Positions 23,983 to 34,115 of a stretch of 44,220 bases of DNA are shown piece after piece. The DNA lies in contig JABMRT010000051.1 of the NCBI GenBank assembly GCA_013202295.1, forward strand, positions 1-44,220. Reading direction: 5' to 3'. This stretch comes from Candidatus Zhuqueibacterota bacterium. Its GTDB lineage: Bacteria; Zhuqueibacterota; QNDG01; JABMRT01. Made by a program: the position numbers and the translations under genes. Positions within the stretch are counted from its first letter, which is position 1; every line of letters starts with the position of its first letter. The notes below the pieces were generated by a model that worked only from the letters and a program-made list of their open reading frames with translations, was not told where the DNA came from and did no database searches.

Positions 23983-26571
23983 ATGTTCAGAATATTTAAA
24001 CAGGAACTTTGGCTCGTTCTTGCCATCCTTTTTATCTCTCAAATACTCATTGCTCAGGGTATATTCACCGATTATTACGCAACCTATATGGGAACCCACC
24101 CAAGCGAACGAATTGGTTATGCCATGAATCCCGGCGGAGACATCAACAACGACGGTTTTGATGACTGGATTATGGGCACGTTTCATTACAACAATGAGAG
24201 TGCGTATTGGTGGGATCGCGGCGCTGTCTATGTAGGATTGGGAAAACCTGACGATCAGGGCATGAATAAATCCATTTCACAGCTTGATGCCCGTTTTTTG
24301 GGAACCAATGGGGGTGATGGGATTGGCTATTCTGTCGCTGCTGGTGATATCAACGGAGACGGATATGATGATATTCTGATTGGTGGACCGGATGGCGCTG
24401 GCATTCCAGGTCATGCTTATTTGGTCTTCGGAAAATCGAATATTGATTGGGGTATAAACGCCGATATCAATCAGGCGGCCAGCGTCCGGTTTAACGGGAC
24501 CGAGAATGGGGAAGGTGCGGGCATTTCTGTCGCTGTAATTGGCGATATGGATGGAGATGGATGCAGCGAGTTCTTAATCAGCGCATCAAGTCATCCCACT
24601 GCGACACGCGCAGGCAAGGTCTGTTTTTTTAAAGGCAAGCCTTCCGGATGGGCCTCGCAAATTGATCTTCGTTATCCGGATGTTTTGTTTTCCACAACGT
24701 CAAGCAACTCCAGACTGGGGTATTGGGCAGAGGGTGTAGGCGATGTGAATGGAGATGGTATTCCTGATTTTGCTATGGGTGCCTGGGGGATAGCATCCCA
24801 TAATGACCATAGAGTTTATCTATTTCTGGGTCGTACGGCCATGAACTGGGCAGCCAATACTGATGTATCCAATGCGGATGTGGTGCTTTATTCCTCCGGT
24901 TTGGGATGGAACGTACGACCCGCCGGTGATGTGAATGGCGATGGATATGACGATTTCATCATGGCCGATATCGGATATGATGGCAGCCGAGGAATTGTGT
25001 ATCTGGTGTTAGGAAGAGCCACATTTCCAACTAACATGGGACCTGGATCCATGTCGGCGTCTCTGTATGGGGAGAACAGCGGCGATGTGGCCGGATTCTG
25101 GATTTCTCGTGCGGGCGATGTGAATGCAGATGGGCTGGATGATTTTATGATCGGCGCACAGAATTACAGTATTCCAAACCTGAGAAACGGAAAAGCATAC
25201 ATGGTGCTTGGCCGAACGACCGGATGGGTTCAGAACATGCCCCTTTCGTCGATTTCCAATACACTTGTCGGTGAAACGACCGAGACCATTCAATTGGGGG
25301 AGTGCGTCAGTTATCTGGGAGATATTAATGGAGACGGCGGTGATGATTATGCTGTGGCCGCACCCTATTTTGATCCTTGGGGTATTTATAACGCAGGCAA
25401 GATCTATCTTTTCAAAGGGACAGCACAAAGAACGATCATTGGTGAATGCTTGCATGATCCGTCTGGTGCAGGTGTGTCTGATGTGGAATTAGCCTGGGAC
25501 AGCAGCAATGCTGCCACGGATCAGGATGGCGCTTATACATGCAATGTAGCCAGTCTTACGGATTTTCGTGTCACGCCTTCCAAACCTTCCCTTGAGGATG
25601 TGCCGTTTGGTGCGATCTCAGCTTATGATGCCTCGCTCATTGCACGATATGAGATTGGACTCACTACACTGGGATCTGATCAATTGGCTGTCGCGGATGT
25701 AAATGATGACAGTTATGTGAATATGATTGACGCTGTGTGTGTTGCTCGTGCTGTTGTAGGCATGGAAGCACTTGCCGGCACCTATGCTGGGAATTGGCGT
25801 TTCGATCCTGAATACAGAGATTATATCAATTTTTCATCTAATCAAACCGGCCAGGATTATTCTGTCTCCCTAAGGGGAGATGTGGATATGGATTGGGCAG
25901 ATTATTTGACGCCAAAACATATTGCAAATCCAGATGATATGGGTGTGCATGTTTTACAGGGAGAACAGGGCGCTGAAATTTTCCTGTCTTATAATAGTAA
26001 CGAATCGCTCTTCAGCGCCGAGGTGCTTCTTGAGTTCGAAGAGGCGGACCTGAATGCAATTCAAGTTGTAAAAGGGGAGGCTGCTTCAGCATTCCAGTTA
26101 TTTTCCGGACAGAAGCCTGGGCAATATCGCGCCTGTGTTTTCGGAGCGCGACCGATTGAGCAATCCGGACAGCTTATGAAATTAGCTATAGAGTTTGTTC
26201 CGGAAACGATTTGCATTGATATTCAGTATCGAATTAACAATTATGCATTTGTTAAAAAATATTTTGAACTATCTCAAGGGCAAGTGACAAAACCGGAGAA
26301 TTTCCAGTTAACATCCCATCCGAATCCGTTTAATCCATCCACCTTGATCCAAATACATTTTTCTGAAGATCTTCACCTGGACCTTACGATTTACAATCTA
26401 TCCGGTCAGCCGATCAAGAATTTAGTTCATCAGCATATCGAAAGCGGCTCCCATCAATTTAGTTGGAATGGTCGGAATGAATCAGGGCATGTAGTCTCAA
26501 GCGGTATCTATCTCTGCCGGGTTGAAACGGATCATATTGTGAAAACTCTTAAGCTTGTGAAAGTTAAATAA
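23983..26571 (+). CDS. Secreted seven-bladed FG-GAP beta-propeller protein with dockerin-like and C-terminal sorting domains
   Basis: 862-residue exported protein. The signal peptide is about residues 1-25 (ILIAQG at the end). Seven FG-GAP calcium loops of DxNxDGxxD type begin near residues 53, 122, 188, 254, 316, 379 and 447, spaced 62-69 residues apart, which predicts a complete integrin-alpha-like seven-bladed propeller. A carboxypeptidase-regulatory-like beta domain follows (about 485-540), then a dockerin-type helix-loop region (about 546-592, with VADVNDDSYVNMIDAV). The last 85 residues (from HPNPFNPST to KTLKLVKVK) match the FlgD-like/type IX sorting C-terminus of FCB bacteria. It lies between glycosyltransferase genes and could bind or anchor the exported glycan; that role is inferred. 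Confidence 0.9.
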   Translation: MFRIFKQELWLVLAILFISQILIAQGIFTDYYATYMGTHPSERIGYAMNPGGDINNDGFDDWIMGTFHYNNESAYWWDRGAVYVGLGKPDDQGMNKSISQLDARFLGTNGGDGIGYSVAAGDINGDGYDDILIGGPDGAGIPGHAYLVFGKSNIDWGINADINQAASVRFNGTENGEGAGISVAVIGDMDGDGCSEFLISASSHPTATRAGKVCFFKGKPSGWASQIDLRYPDVLFSTTSSNSRLGYWAEGVGDVNGDGIPDFAMGAWGIASHNDHRVYLFLGRTAMNWAANTDVSNADVVLYSSGLGWNVRPAGDVNGDGYDDFIMADIGYDGSRGIVYLVLGRATFPTNMGPGSMSASLYGENSGDVAGFWISRAGDVNADGLDDFMIGAQNYSIPNLRNGKAYMVLGRTTGWVQNMPLSSISNTLVGETTETIQLGECVSYLGDINGDGGDDYAVAAPYFDPWGIYNAGKIYLFKGTAQRTIIGECLHDPSGAGVSDVELAWDSSNAATDQDGAYTCNVASLTDFRVTPSKPSLEDVPFGAISAYDASLIARYEIGLTTLGSDQLAVADVNDDSYVNMIDAVCVARAVVGMEALAGTYAGNWRFDPEYRDYINFSSNQTGQDYSVSLRGDVDMDWADYLTPKHIANPDDMGVHVLQGEQGAEIFLSYNSNESLFSAEVLLEFEEADLNAIQVVKGEAASAFQLFSGQKPGQYRACVFGARPIEQSGQLMKLAIEFVPETICIDIQYRINNYAFVKKYFELSQGQVTKPENFQLTSHPNPFNPSTLIQIHFSEDLHLDLTIYNLSGQPIKNLVHQHIESGSHQFSWNGRNESGHVVSSGIYLCRVETDHIVKTLKLVKVK

Positions 26572-31647: not shown

Positions 31648-32217
31648 CTGTCGACACCAATCGCACATACCCTGTTCGGGATGGCACTGGCCCGTTTGTC
31701 ACTGCCTACGAATCCACCCTCCATGGCGTGGATCGCCCTCTACTCCCTGATCTTTGCAAATCTGCCGGATGTGGATTATTTGTTCGGTTTTATTGTTGGT
31801 CGGCCAAACGCCTTTCACCGCGACTGGACCCATTCCCTCGTGTTCGCGCTGGGGATCGCAGTGCTGTTTATGTGGATCCGTTTCCTGAAATCCAGTACGG
31901 TCGAAATCCGATCATCCCTGCTTGTTTTTGGATTGATTTCATCCCATCTGGTTGTGGATTATTTTGCACTGGATATGAGTGATCCGGTTGGAATTCCGTT
32001 GTTCTGGCCATTCAGTTCTGAACATTATATCGCGCCAATCATCCTCTTCAGGGATGTTCATAAAGGAGTTACAAACGCTGCTTTTTTCAGGGTGCTTTTC
32101 TCGTCGCATAACTTGATCACCCTGCTATCTGAATTGATGATTTTTGGTCCTTTTGTTGCTATAAGTTATTGGATTTTAAATCGTAAGACACAGAGATTCA
32201 ATGCAGAATCAAAATAA
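31648..32217 (+). CDS. YdjM-like membrane-bound metal-dependent hydrolase, probable CTG start
   Basis: Small polytopic membrane protein of the YdjM/DUF457 metal-dependent hydrolase group. Starting at CTG 31648 gives 189 residues with the conserved N-terminal STPIAHTLFG (H7). Further likely metal ligands are NLPDVDYL (D41, D43), FHRDWTHSL (H57, H62) and SSHLVVDYF (H100, D104). Using the first ATG (31681) would lose the conserved PIAH motif. Four or five hydrophobic segments are present. The biochemical role of the family is poorly known; phospholipid or lipid-linked substrates are an inference. It overlaps the next gene by 17 bases. Confidence 0.78.
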   Translation: MSTPIAHTLFGMALARLSLPTNPPSMAWIALYSLIFANLPDVDYLFGFIVGRPNAFHRDWTHSLVFALGIAVLFMWIRFLKSSTVEIRSSLLVFGLISSHLVVDYFALDMSDPVGIPLFWPFSSEHYIAPIILFRDVHKGVTNAAFFRVLFSSHNLITLLSELMIFGPFVAISYWILNRKTQRFNAESK

Positions 32218-33178
32218 AAAATCTCCCTTCCTCTCGGTAGTTGTGCCGATCTATAATGAAGTCGAGAATGTACGGTTGCTGTATACCGCCATTCGGGACG
32301 TTCTGGATACGCTGAACAAACCATGTGAAATTCTACTTGTAGATGACGGCAGTACGGATGGTACGCGGGAGATTCTGTATGAGTTGGCAGCTTCTGATCC
32401 GCAACTTCGTGTAATTCTGTTTCGGAATAATTTTGGGCAGTCCGCAGCCATGGGTGCCGGATTTCGCGCGAGCCGCGGTGAAATGGTAGTCGCGATGGAT
32501 GGCGATTTGCAGAACGATCCGAAGGACATCCCCAAGCTCATCCAGAAAATCGAAGAAGGATATGATGTGGTCAGCGGGTGGCGCAAGAACCGCAAGGACG
32601 GATTGATTATACGTAAAATCCCCTCGCGAATCGCGAACCGGCTGATCTGCTCCGTCACGGATGTCCAACTGCATGACACAGGCTGTTCGCTTAAGATTTT
32701 CCGCAGAGCAGTGATTGACCGCATCCGGCTGTATGGTGAGTTGCATCGGTTCATCCCGGCGCTTGCACGAGTTGAAGGTGCGCGTATTGCAGAGATGGTG
32801 GTGGCCCATCATCCACGGCGGTTCGGGGAATCCAAATACAATATCACGCGCACGTTCCGCGTGCTCATGGATCTGAGCAGCCTGAACATGTTCATAAAAT
32901 ATCTTGGGAATCCCCTGCGGTTTTTTGGACGCATCGGATTTATGATTCTGTTTTTCGGCGCTCTGTCCACAGCCTGGGCCGGATGGCTGGCCATTGATCA
33001 ACATTGGCAAGCGGCCGAACTTAATATATTAATCACACTTATCTTTTTATTAGCCGCAACCGGTTTTCAGTTTGTTTTTTACGGGTTGATTGCGAGCTTG
33101 ATCGTCAAAACAGGAAATCGAAAAGGGCGCACCCTGTCCGCGCAAATGGCTTTTCGACAAGAGGATGAAAATGAGTAA
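32201..33178 (+). CDS. GtrB/DPM1-like polyprenyl-phosphate glycosyltransferase (DxD intact)
   Basis: 325-residue GT2 enzyme that should load a sugar onto polyprenyl phosphate to make a lipid-linked monosaccharide donor. VPIYNEVENV and LLVDDGSTDGT form the nucleotide-binding part, D100-G-D102 in MDGDLQNDP is the metal site, and HHPRRFGESKYN is the conserved acceptor-lipid region. Two C-terminal membrane helices (about 238-262 and 275-302) match the GtrB architecture. It overlaps the YdjM-like gene by 17 bases and is followed by a degenerate paralogue. Confidence 0.92.
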   Translation: MQNQNKKSPFLSVVVPIYNEVENVRLLYTAIRDVLDTLNKPCEILLVDDGSTDGTREILYELAASDPQLRVILFRNNFGQSAAMGAGFRASRGEMVVAMDGDLQNDPKDIPKLIQKIEEGYDVVSGWRKNRKDGLIIRKIPSRIANRLICSVTDVQLHDTGCSLKIFRRAVIDRIRLYGELHRFIPALARVEGARIAEMVVAHHPRRFGESKYNITRTFRVLMDLSSLNMFIKYLGNPLRFFGRIGFMILFFGALSTAWAGWLAIDQHWQAAELNILITLIFLLAATGFQFVFYGLIASLIVKTGNRKGRTLSAQMAFRQEDENE

Positions 33179-34115
33179 AGCTTCCCATTCATTAATTATT
33201 TCCGTATTTAATTTGTCCAATACGGTGAAAACCGTGTATCAGGATTTGACCAAAGCCATGGGCCGGCTGCCCGGTTCGTATGACATCGTTTTTGTGGATG
33301 ATGCCAGTACGGACAATACCTATGAGCAATTGGTTGAACTGGCACAAACAGATTCGAATCTACGTGTGATCAAAATGAGAACCTCATTCGGTGAGGCCGC
33401 GGCTCTGGATGCAGGTCTGCGTCATTCTACGGGTGAACGCATTGTGTTTATCAGCGGACGCGTGCGAGTGAATGTGGCGCAGATCCCTGATCTTGTGAAT
33501 GCGTTGGATCTGGGTAATGATTTGGTCATCGGCCGCCGCTATCCCAGACGTGATGCCTTGATGAATCGATGGATTTCCGGCCTGTTCAACTGGATCGTCA
33601 GTCGGATCTGCAAAGTCCGTTTGCGAGACATGAACAGCGGTGTATTTGCTTCAACCCGTGCCGTTTTTGACAAGATCGCGGTATATGGCGATTTGAATAA
33701 TTTTATTGCCGTGCTCGCATCACAGCAGGGGTATCAGCTGGCCGAGGTGGATATTGAACAGCTTTCTGGTACATTTCGTATGTCCCGCTACCCGAAAGAG
33801 TATGTGAGCCGCCTGCTTGATATTATCACTGTCTTTTTCCTGACACGGTATTCGAAGAAACCGATTCATTTTATGGGATTTATGGGCGCATTGTTTTTTC
33901 TCATCGGATTGGGCATTGAGATTTACCTGTTCATTTATCGCATCCTTCAACTCGGCCCGATTGCCGGAAGGCCGCTGATTATCCTGGGTGCGTTACTGCT
34001 GGTGATCGGTATTCAGCTCATTTCCATCGGTTTATTGGGCGAGATGATTATTTTCACCCATGCCGGGGATATTGAAGAATATAACATCGAGACCATACTC
34101 AATGAGGATTCCTGA
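33171..34115 (+). CDS. GtrB-like glycosyltransferase paralogue that has lost the DxD motif
   Basis: 314-residue GT2 protein with the same layout as the gene before it: an N-terminal GT-A domain and two C-terminal membrane helices (about 233-256 and 266-290). FVDDASTDNT keeps the first Asp motif, but the metal-binding site reads IVFISGRVRVN, with S95-G-R97 where the neighbour has D-G-D. The lipid-binding block is SGTFRMSRYP in place of RRFGESKYN. It is probably catalytically altered or inactive, perhaps a partner subunit. ATG 33171 is preferred (GAGG 33161-33164, six bases upstream) and overlaps the previous stop by 8 bases. Confidence 0.87.
   Translation: MSKASHSLIISVFNLSNTVKTVYQDLTKAMGRLPGSYDIVFVDDASTDNTYEQLVELAQTDSNLRVIKMRTSFGEAAALDAGLRHSTGERIVFISGRVRVNVAQIPDLVNALDLGNDLVIGRRYPRRDALMNRWISGLFNWIVSRICKVRLRDMNSGVFASTRAVFDKIAVYGDLNNFIAVLASQQGYQLAEVDIEQLSGTFRMSRYPKEYVSRLLDIITVFFLTRYSKKPIHFMGFMGALFFLIGLGIEIYLFIYRILQLGPIAGRPLIILGALLLVIGIQLISIGLLGEMIIFTHAGDIEEYNIETILNEDS

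Follow-up and report, generated by a model that had tools for sequence, protein, structure and literature searches.

Two overlapping genes in a 44,220-nucleotide stretch of DNA from a Candidatus Zhuqueibacterota bacterium (contig JABMRT010000051.1 of assembly GCA_013202295.1; hereafter the window) probably encode the two subunits, P1 and P2, of one hetero-oligomeric polyprenyl-phosphate glycosyltransferase. We computed a conserved loss of motifs from P2, the linkage of the two genes, purifying selection on both, and a reciprocal pattern of conservation between their products. A homo-oligomer that split into one active and one dead chain would explain the fixed linkage, the joint loss of both genes from some genomes, the purifying selection and the reciprocal conservation.

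A pair of overlapping glycosyltransferase genes

The two genes are located as follows.

32201-33178, + strand: P1, 325 aa, ATG start, intact frame; ArnC/GtrB-type polyprenyl-phosphate glycosyltransferase (GT2, two TM helices), predicted catalytic subunit
33165-34115, + strand: P2, 316 aa, ATG start, intact frame; pseudo-glycosyltransferase paralogue, predicted non-catalytic partner subunit

A preliminary description of this DNA had reported adjoining, overlapping genes for two proteins of the same GT2 plus two-helix architecture, both with the first Asp motif, the second in an intact frame. The coordinates, the overlap of 14 bases, the match of both proteins to Pfam PF00535 (GT2) and the AlphaFold2 models bear this out, and the first Asp motif reads LLVDDGSTD in P1 and VFVDDASTD in P2. 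With 33% identity over 295 residues (E 3e-43), the two proteins are paralogues. Their closest solved relatives by sequence are ArnC and then GtrB, ArnC being the best match of P1 among solved structures (E 1.2e-51). The cut-off of the NCBIfam ArnC model NF007986 (529 bits) is reached by neither P1 (191.3 bits) nor P2 (102.8 bits).

The AlphaFold2 models (mean pLDDT 81 for P1 and 80 for P2) each contain a GT-A domain, an interface helix and two long TM helices. For both proteins, the best Foldseek matches are ArnC and GtrB; P1 has ArnC 9asc at the top, and its E-values for ArnC and GtrB go down to 1.6e-24. As modeled, P1 and P2 share the fold and the GT-A/juxtamembrane/two-TM architecture of polyprenyl-phosphate GT2 enzymes. 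The model of P2 differs from ArnC by an rmsd of about 6-7 Å over the whole chain, which makes the domain orientation in this model unsure.

A third ArnC-like paralogue, P3 (contig C272:2476-3414 of genome G000; loci L002 and L109), has both the DxD and the TM2 signature described below intact. Almost every genome of the host phylum has a copy of P3, even where P1 and P2 are missing, and the DxD is present in 23 of 23 copies.

Catalytic motifs of P1 and their counterparts in P2

Two motifs distinguish the proteins.

32498..32506, + strand: P1 DxD, D100-G101-D102; Asp at both positions in 55/55 P1 orthologues
32816..32839, + strand: P1 acceptor-loop motif R206-RFGESK-Y213; R206 in 55/55, K212 in 55/55
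33453..33473, + strand: P2 SGRVRVN (residues 97-103), where P1 has DGDLQND; from the alignment of 62 orthologues
33768..33791, + strand: P2 G202-TFRMSR-Y209, where P1 has RRFGESKY; G202 in 62/62, Arg in 55/55 P1 and 23/23 P3

Residue roles were taken from PMC4728340, which defines D94xD96, R122 and R200 of GtrB, and from PMC5526996. Equivalences to GtrB were assigned by alignment, and those to PfDPMS by motif matching rather than by structural superposition. P1 contains MDGDLQNDP at residues 99-107 and RRFGESKYN at residues 206-214. The DxD recurs in every P1 orthologue that covers this region, and R206 corresponds to R200 of GtrB and R202 of PfDPMS in a register taken from the phmmer alignment to GtrB. 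Judged by its sequence, P1 is an ArnC/GtrB-type polyprenyl-phosphate glycosyltransferase with all catalytic residues.

At the equivalent places of P2, the preliminary description had noticed ISGRVRVN (residues 96-103) and SGTFRMSRYP (residues 201-210). This contrast is confirmed, and the DxD is missing from all 62 aligned P2 orthologues, a number that rules out chance or a frame error behind the motif loss. Position 97 is T, S, A or N, but never D. Position 99, the second Asp of the DxD, is Arg in 60 of 62 sequences, and position 101, the second metal ligand (Gln93 in PfDPMS), is Arg in 46 of 62. The sole two orthologues without Arg at the DxD position come from loci L103 (5659-6678) and L101 (6244-7197), where the replacement motifs are NSAKRMN and AGIGVN, respectively; the L103 protein also has DS in place of the first DD motif.

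The acceptor-loop Arg (GtrB R200, PfDPMS R202) is replaced by Gly in 62/62 P2 sequences, its partner, equivalent to Glu12 of PfDPMS, is lost, and the basic acceptor-site residue (GtrB K132) is Asn in 62/62. The earlier claim that P2 has lost its lipid-site motif holds for this Arg, but goes too far for the site as a whole. Within the SKY part, Y is kept by most orthologues and K or R by two thirds, and the acceptor-phosphate Arg (P2 R125; GtrB R122, PfDPMS R117) and Ser (P2 S138; PfDPMS S135) are invariant (62/62). The next Arg after GtrB R122, R125, is likewise found in 62/62, and the first Asp pair on the nucleotide side, Asp45/46 in P2, is kept in 62 and 61 of 62 sequences. As far as these alignments can predict, the donor, metal and acceptor-loop network of P2 is gone as one unit, and part of the lipid-phosphate site is left. 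We also considered that P2 might keep GtrB D157 as a catalytic acid, and rejected this assignment: the conserved Asp155 of P2 is not aligned to D157 by phmmer.

The Arg-Val-Arg motif could replace the metal, such that P2 binds a nucleotide or nucleotide-sugar metal-free, either as a metal-independent polyprenyl-phosphate glycosyltransferase or as a nucleotide-sensing gate of P1. We regard this broader idea as unlikely, if worth keeping in mind. Its first version, in which the Arg pair neutralises the donor diphosphate and P2 catalyzes a step of its own beside P1, seems decidedly unlikely. It fits with the frequent Arg at both ligand positions, with the retention of Asp45/46, R125 and S138, and with the purifying selection on P2; and bacterial GT6 enzymes are reported to need no metal, unlike their mammalian relatives (PMC3961637). 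It is difficult to reconcile with the fate of the acceptor loop, given that mutation of R200 or K132 left GtrB inactive (PMC4728340). Because the acceptor-loop Arg, its paired Glu and the basic acceptor-site residue were lost along with the metal ligands, the metal-independent chemistry that the preliminary description had offered as an alternative becomes less likely.

Distribution, linkage and selection

P2 was found in 72 of 82 genomes of the host phylum (E below 1e-125) and in none of about 306 further genomes that were searched alongside (at E 1e-91). Most of the genomes compared are draft metagenome assemblies, and some from the host phylum were deposited as Calditrichota, "Deferribacteres" or "Bacteroidota" bacteria. 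Outside the host phylum, one of 149 genomes of another phylum contains P2. This genome (G099), a MAG labeled Marinimicrobia, holds the sole P1-P2 pair found outside the host phylum (L042, 4045-5990), which may reflect either horizontal transfer or mislabeling of the genome. Eight host-phylum genomes, several of them >90% complete, contain neither P1 nor P2.

The search for the same gene pair in other genomes returned P1 and P2 as adjoining genes on the same strand and in the same order in nearly all loci; at one locus (L094), a glycosyltransferase gene lies between them. P1 or P2 seemed to stand alone in five genomes (G009, G021, G065, G071 and G074). We dismissed these cases, since all five lie at contig ends: remnants of the partner gene are visible in three of them (G021, G065 and G074; remnant loci L056, L086 and L105), and the contigs of G009 and G071 stop too soon for the partner. 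No P2 orthologue with an intact DxD was found, either alone or beside P1. In a quick tree, P2 forms one clade with a support of 100 and a long stem, and P1 forms one clade with a support of 94.

Comparisons of close pairs gave a dN/dS of 0.03-0.13 for P2 and of 0.04-0.12 for P1. A value of about 0.1, and not 1, is the opposite of relaxed selection. The loss of the DxD and of the acceptor-loop Arg could in principle mark P2 as a decaying duplicate without function; this possibility is refuted by the dN/dS values and by conservation, that is, by the presence of P2 in most host-phylum genomes, the fixed replacement motif and the almost invariant membrane domain, and we assign it virtually no weight.

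The linkage and co-loss of P1 and P2 are also compatible with proteins that serve different steps of a shared pathway, which counts against a hetero-oligomer. In such a scenario, the two proteins would act separately in one glycan pathway, P2 for example as a lipid-binding scaffold for further enzymes of the cluster, and would be linked by inheritance of the whole block. Indeed, the neighboring genes keep their order as well and likewise show correlated distance matrices; the P1-P2 correlation (r 0.76-0.83) does not clearly exceed that of other genes in the cluster, and we do not take it as a sign of contact. What makes separate roles very improbable is that the adjacency of P1 and P2 is far tighter than that of other neighbors, and that a reciprocal loss is specific to these two paralogues.

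Reciprocal conservation of the membrane domains

This reciprocal loss concerns the following regions.

32912..33112, + strand: P1 membrane part, residues 238-304; variable, mean conservation 0.49; TM2 signature lost, S299 for the family Glu
33861..34064, + strand: P2 membrane domain, residues 233-300; mean conservation 0.81; RP....G.Q....GL.GEMI.FTHA

In the 55 genomes that contain both proteins, mean column conservation in the GT part is higher for P1 (0.74) than for P2 (0.60), and the order is reversed in the membrane part (0.49 and 0.81). The Wilcoxon test gives p 7e-17 and 5e-13 for this contrast when columns are treated as independent; in a circular-shift test, which is safer here, 1 of 311 shifts attains the observed contrast. 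P3 is conserved in both its GT and its membrane part.

The contrast is seen again in the TM2 signature RP...G.Q....GLLGE, a feature conserved in close relatives rather than a published family criterion. Its Pro and Glu are present in 62/62 P2 sequences, and the signature is kept in 23/23 copies of P3. In P2, E293, T298, H299 and A300 each occur in 62/62 sequences, THA after TM2 being an invariant addition of its own. In P1, N[IV] replaces RP, and the Glu is found in 2 of 55 sequences. In other phyla, the closest relatives of P1 with an intact DxD retain both RP and Glu, which places the loss of the signature on the P1 line. The loss is thus reciprocal: P1 keeps the catalytic residues, and P2 keeps the TM2 signature and the most conserved membrane domain. 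This loss in P1 is a second feature of the pair, absent from the preliminary description.

The reciprocal loss points to a division of labor rather than to plain regulation. The preliminary description had suggested that P2 may be a pseudoenzyme that forms a heteromer with P1, like the regulatory partners of other glycosyltransferases. The idea of a heteromer withstands both refuting signs that this description had named, a lone second copy with an intact DxD and relaxed selection; a purely regulatory role is less probable. A more specific form of regulation would make P2 a sensor subunit, the Arg-rich former donor site of which binds free nucleotide or phosphate and switches P1. The conserved Arg cluster and the kept DD motif do lie where relatives bind nucleotide; yet conservation is strongest in the membrane domain, not in this pocket, and we consider a sensor very unlikely. 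The same pattern bears on a metal-independent transferase: the GT domain is the less conserved part of P2, opposite to P1, and independent catalysis by P2 would leave the loss of the TM2 signature from P1 unexplained. Two observations weigh against the hetero-oligomer. Conservation of the P2 GT domain remains appreciable (0.60), so that a catalytic or ligand-binding role is conceivable, and P1, with two TM helices of its own, may be able to reach the membrane without P2.

Proposed hetero-oligomer and its gene neighborhood

We propose that the gene of an ancestral homo-oligomeric enzyme was duplicated and that the two copies lost complementary parts, which would have turned the enzyme into an obligate hetero-oligomer. 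P1, with its donor site, metal ligands and acceptor loop, would transfer the sugar from a nucleotide-sugar to polyprenyl phosphate. P2, without the donor, metal and acceptor-loop network, should not transfer sugar. It has kept the Arg and Ser for the acceptor phosphate, along with the juxtamembrane helices and the conserved transmembrane domain. With these parts, P2 probably forms or stabilizes the membrane bundle and assists P1 by holding the lipid or passing it on. The physical complex, its stoichiometry, this role in lipid handling, the sugar and the final acceptor are the parts of the model that we infer.

The genes on both sides of the pair are the following.

31681..32217, + strand: YdjM-family membrane protein (PF04307), overlaps the start of P1
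34139..43288, + strand: downstream glycan genes, namely GT-C, AglJ-like GT2, GT4, GT2, epimerase, GT-C and Wzx-type flippase

The downstream glycosyltransferases, epimerase and Wzx-type flippase identify the setting as a surface glycan cluster, and much of this gene order recurs in other P1/P2 loci. The proposed enzyme would supply its product to the GT-C transferases encoded in this cluster. Across 62 loci, homologues of the YdjM-family protein cluster in 41; almost all of them lie some 2 kb upstream of P2, usually as the gene before P1. This protein may be a third part of the P1/P2 module. Also inside the glycan cluster, positions 23983-26571 of the window encode an 862-aa protein with FG-GAP repeats, a dockerin domain and a FlgD-type Ig domain, homologues of which lie upstream of P1/P2 in several other genomes.

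Comparison with known systems

ArnC, the undecaprenyl-phosphate 4-deoxy-4-formamido-L-arabinose transferase (PDB 9asc, 9bhe), has the same GT-A, juxtamembrane and two-TM layout as P1 and P2, and its catalytic motifs are kept by P1. In contrast to the situation described here, with two gene products and a P2 that lacks the DxD, the solved ArnC entries contain one gene product. GtrB from Synechocystis (sll0501; PDB 5ekp, 9nyf) shares the same architecture and belongs to a tetramer-forming family, but it too is encoded by one gene, and its tetramer consists of identical chains (PMC4728340). Moreover, the TM region of GtrB is without strong conservation (PMC4728340), whereas the membrane domain is the most conserved part of P2. 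A search of the open-access literature gave no earlier description of a DxD-less ArnC/GtrB partner.

GtrB and other solved polyprenyl-phosphate glycosyltransferases combine catalysis with the handling of membrane and lipid in one chain, and the two are hard to separate. In the host phylum, evolution seems to have parted these functions within one fold. P1 and P2 therefore bear on the contribution of the TM domain and of the oligomer to catalysis, a question left by the structures of GtrB and DPMS. For these genomes, the pair also implies that the annotation "glycosyltransferase family 2" can hide a non-catalytic subunit.

A complex of two glycosyltransferase paralogues, one of them partly inactive, is known from the heparan sulfate polymerase EXT1-EXT2. 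A structure of the EXT1-EXT2 complex is the subject of PMC9675754. In contrast to P1 and P2, these proteins belong to families GT47/GT64, are eukaryotic and form a polymerase.

By analogy, the nearest working counterpart of P1 and P2 is human dolichol-phosphate-mannose synthase, in which DPM1 acts with DPM2 and DPM3 and which likewise splits the catalytic chain and the membrane function between subunits (PMC5526996, PMC7728079). DPM2 and DPM3 are small membrane proteins of two helices each, whereas P2 is paralogous to the catalytic chain over its full length and has a catalytic domain that is predicted to be dead.
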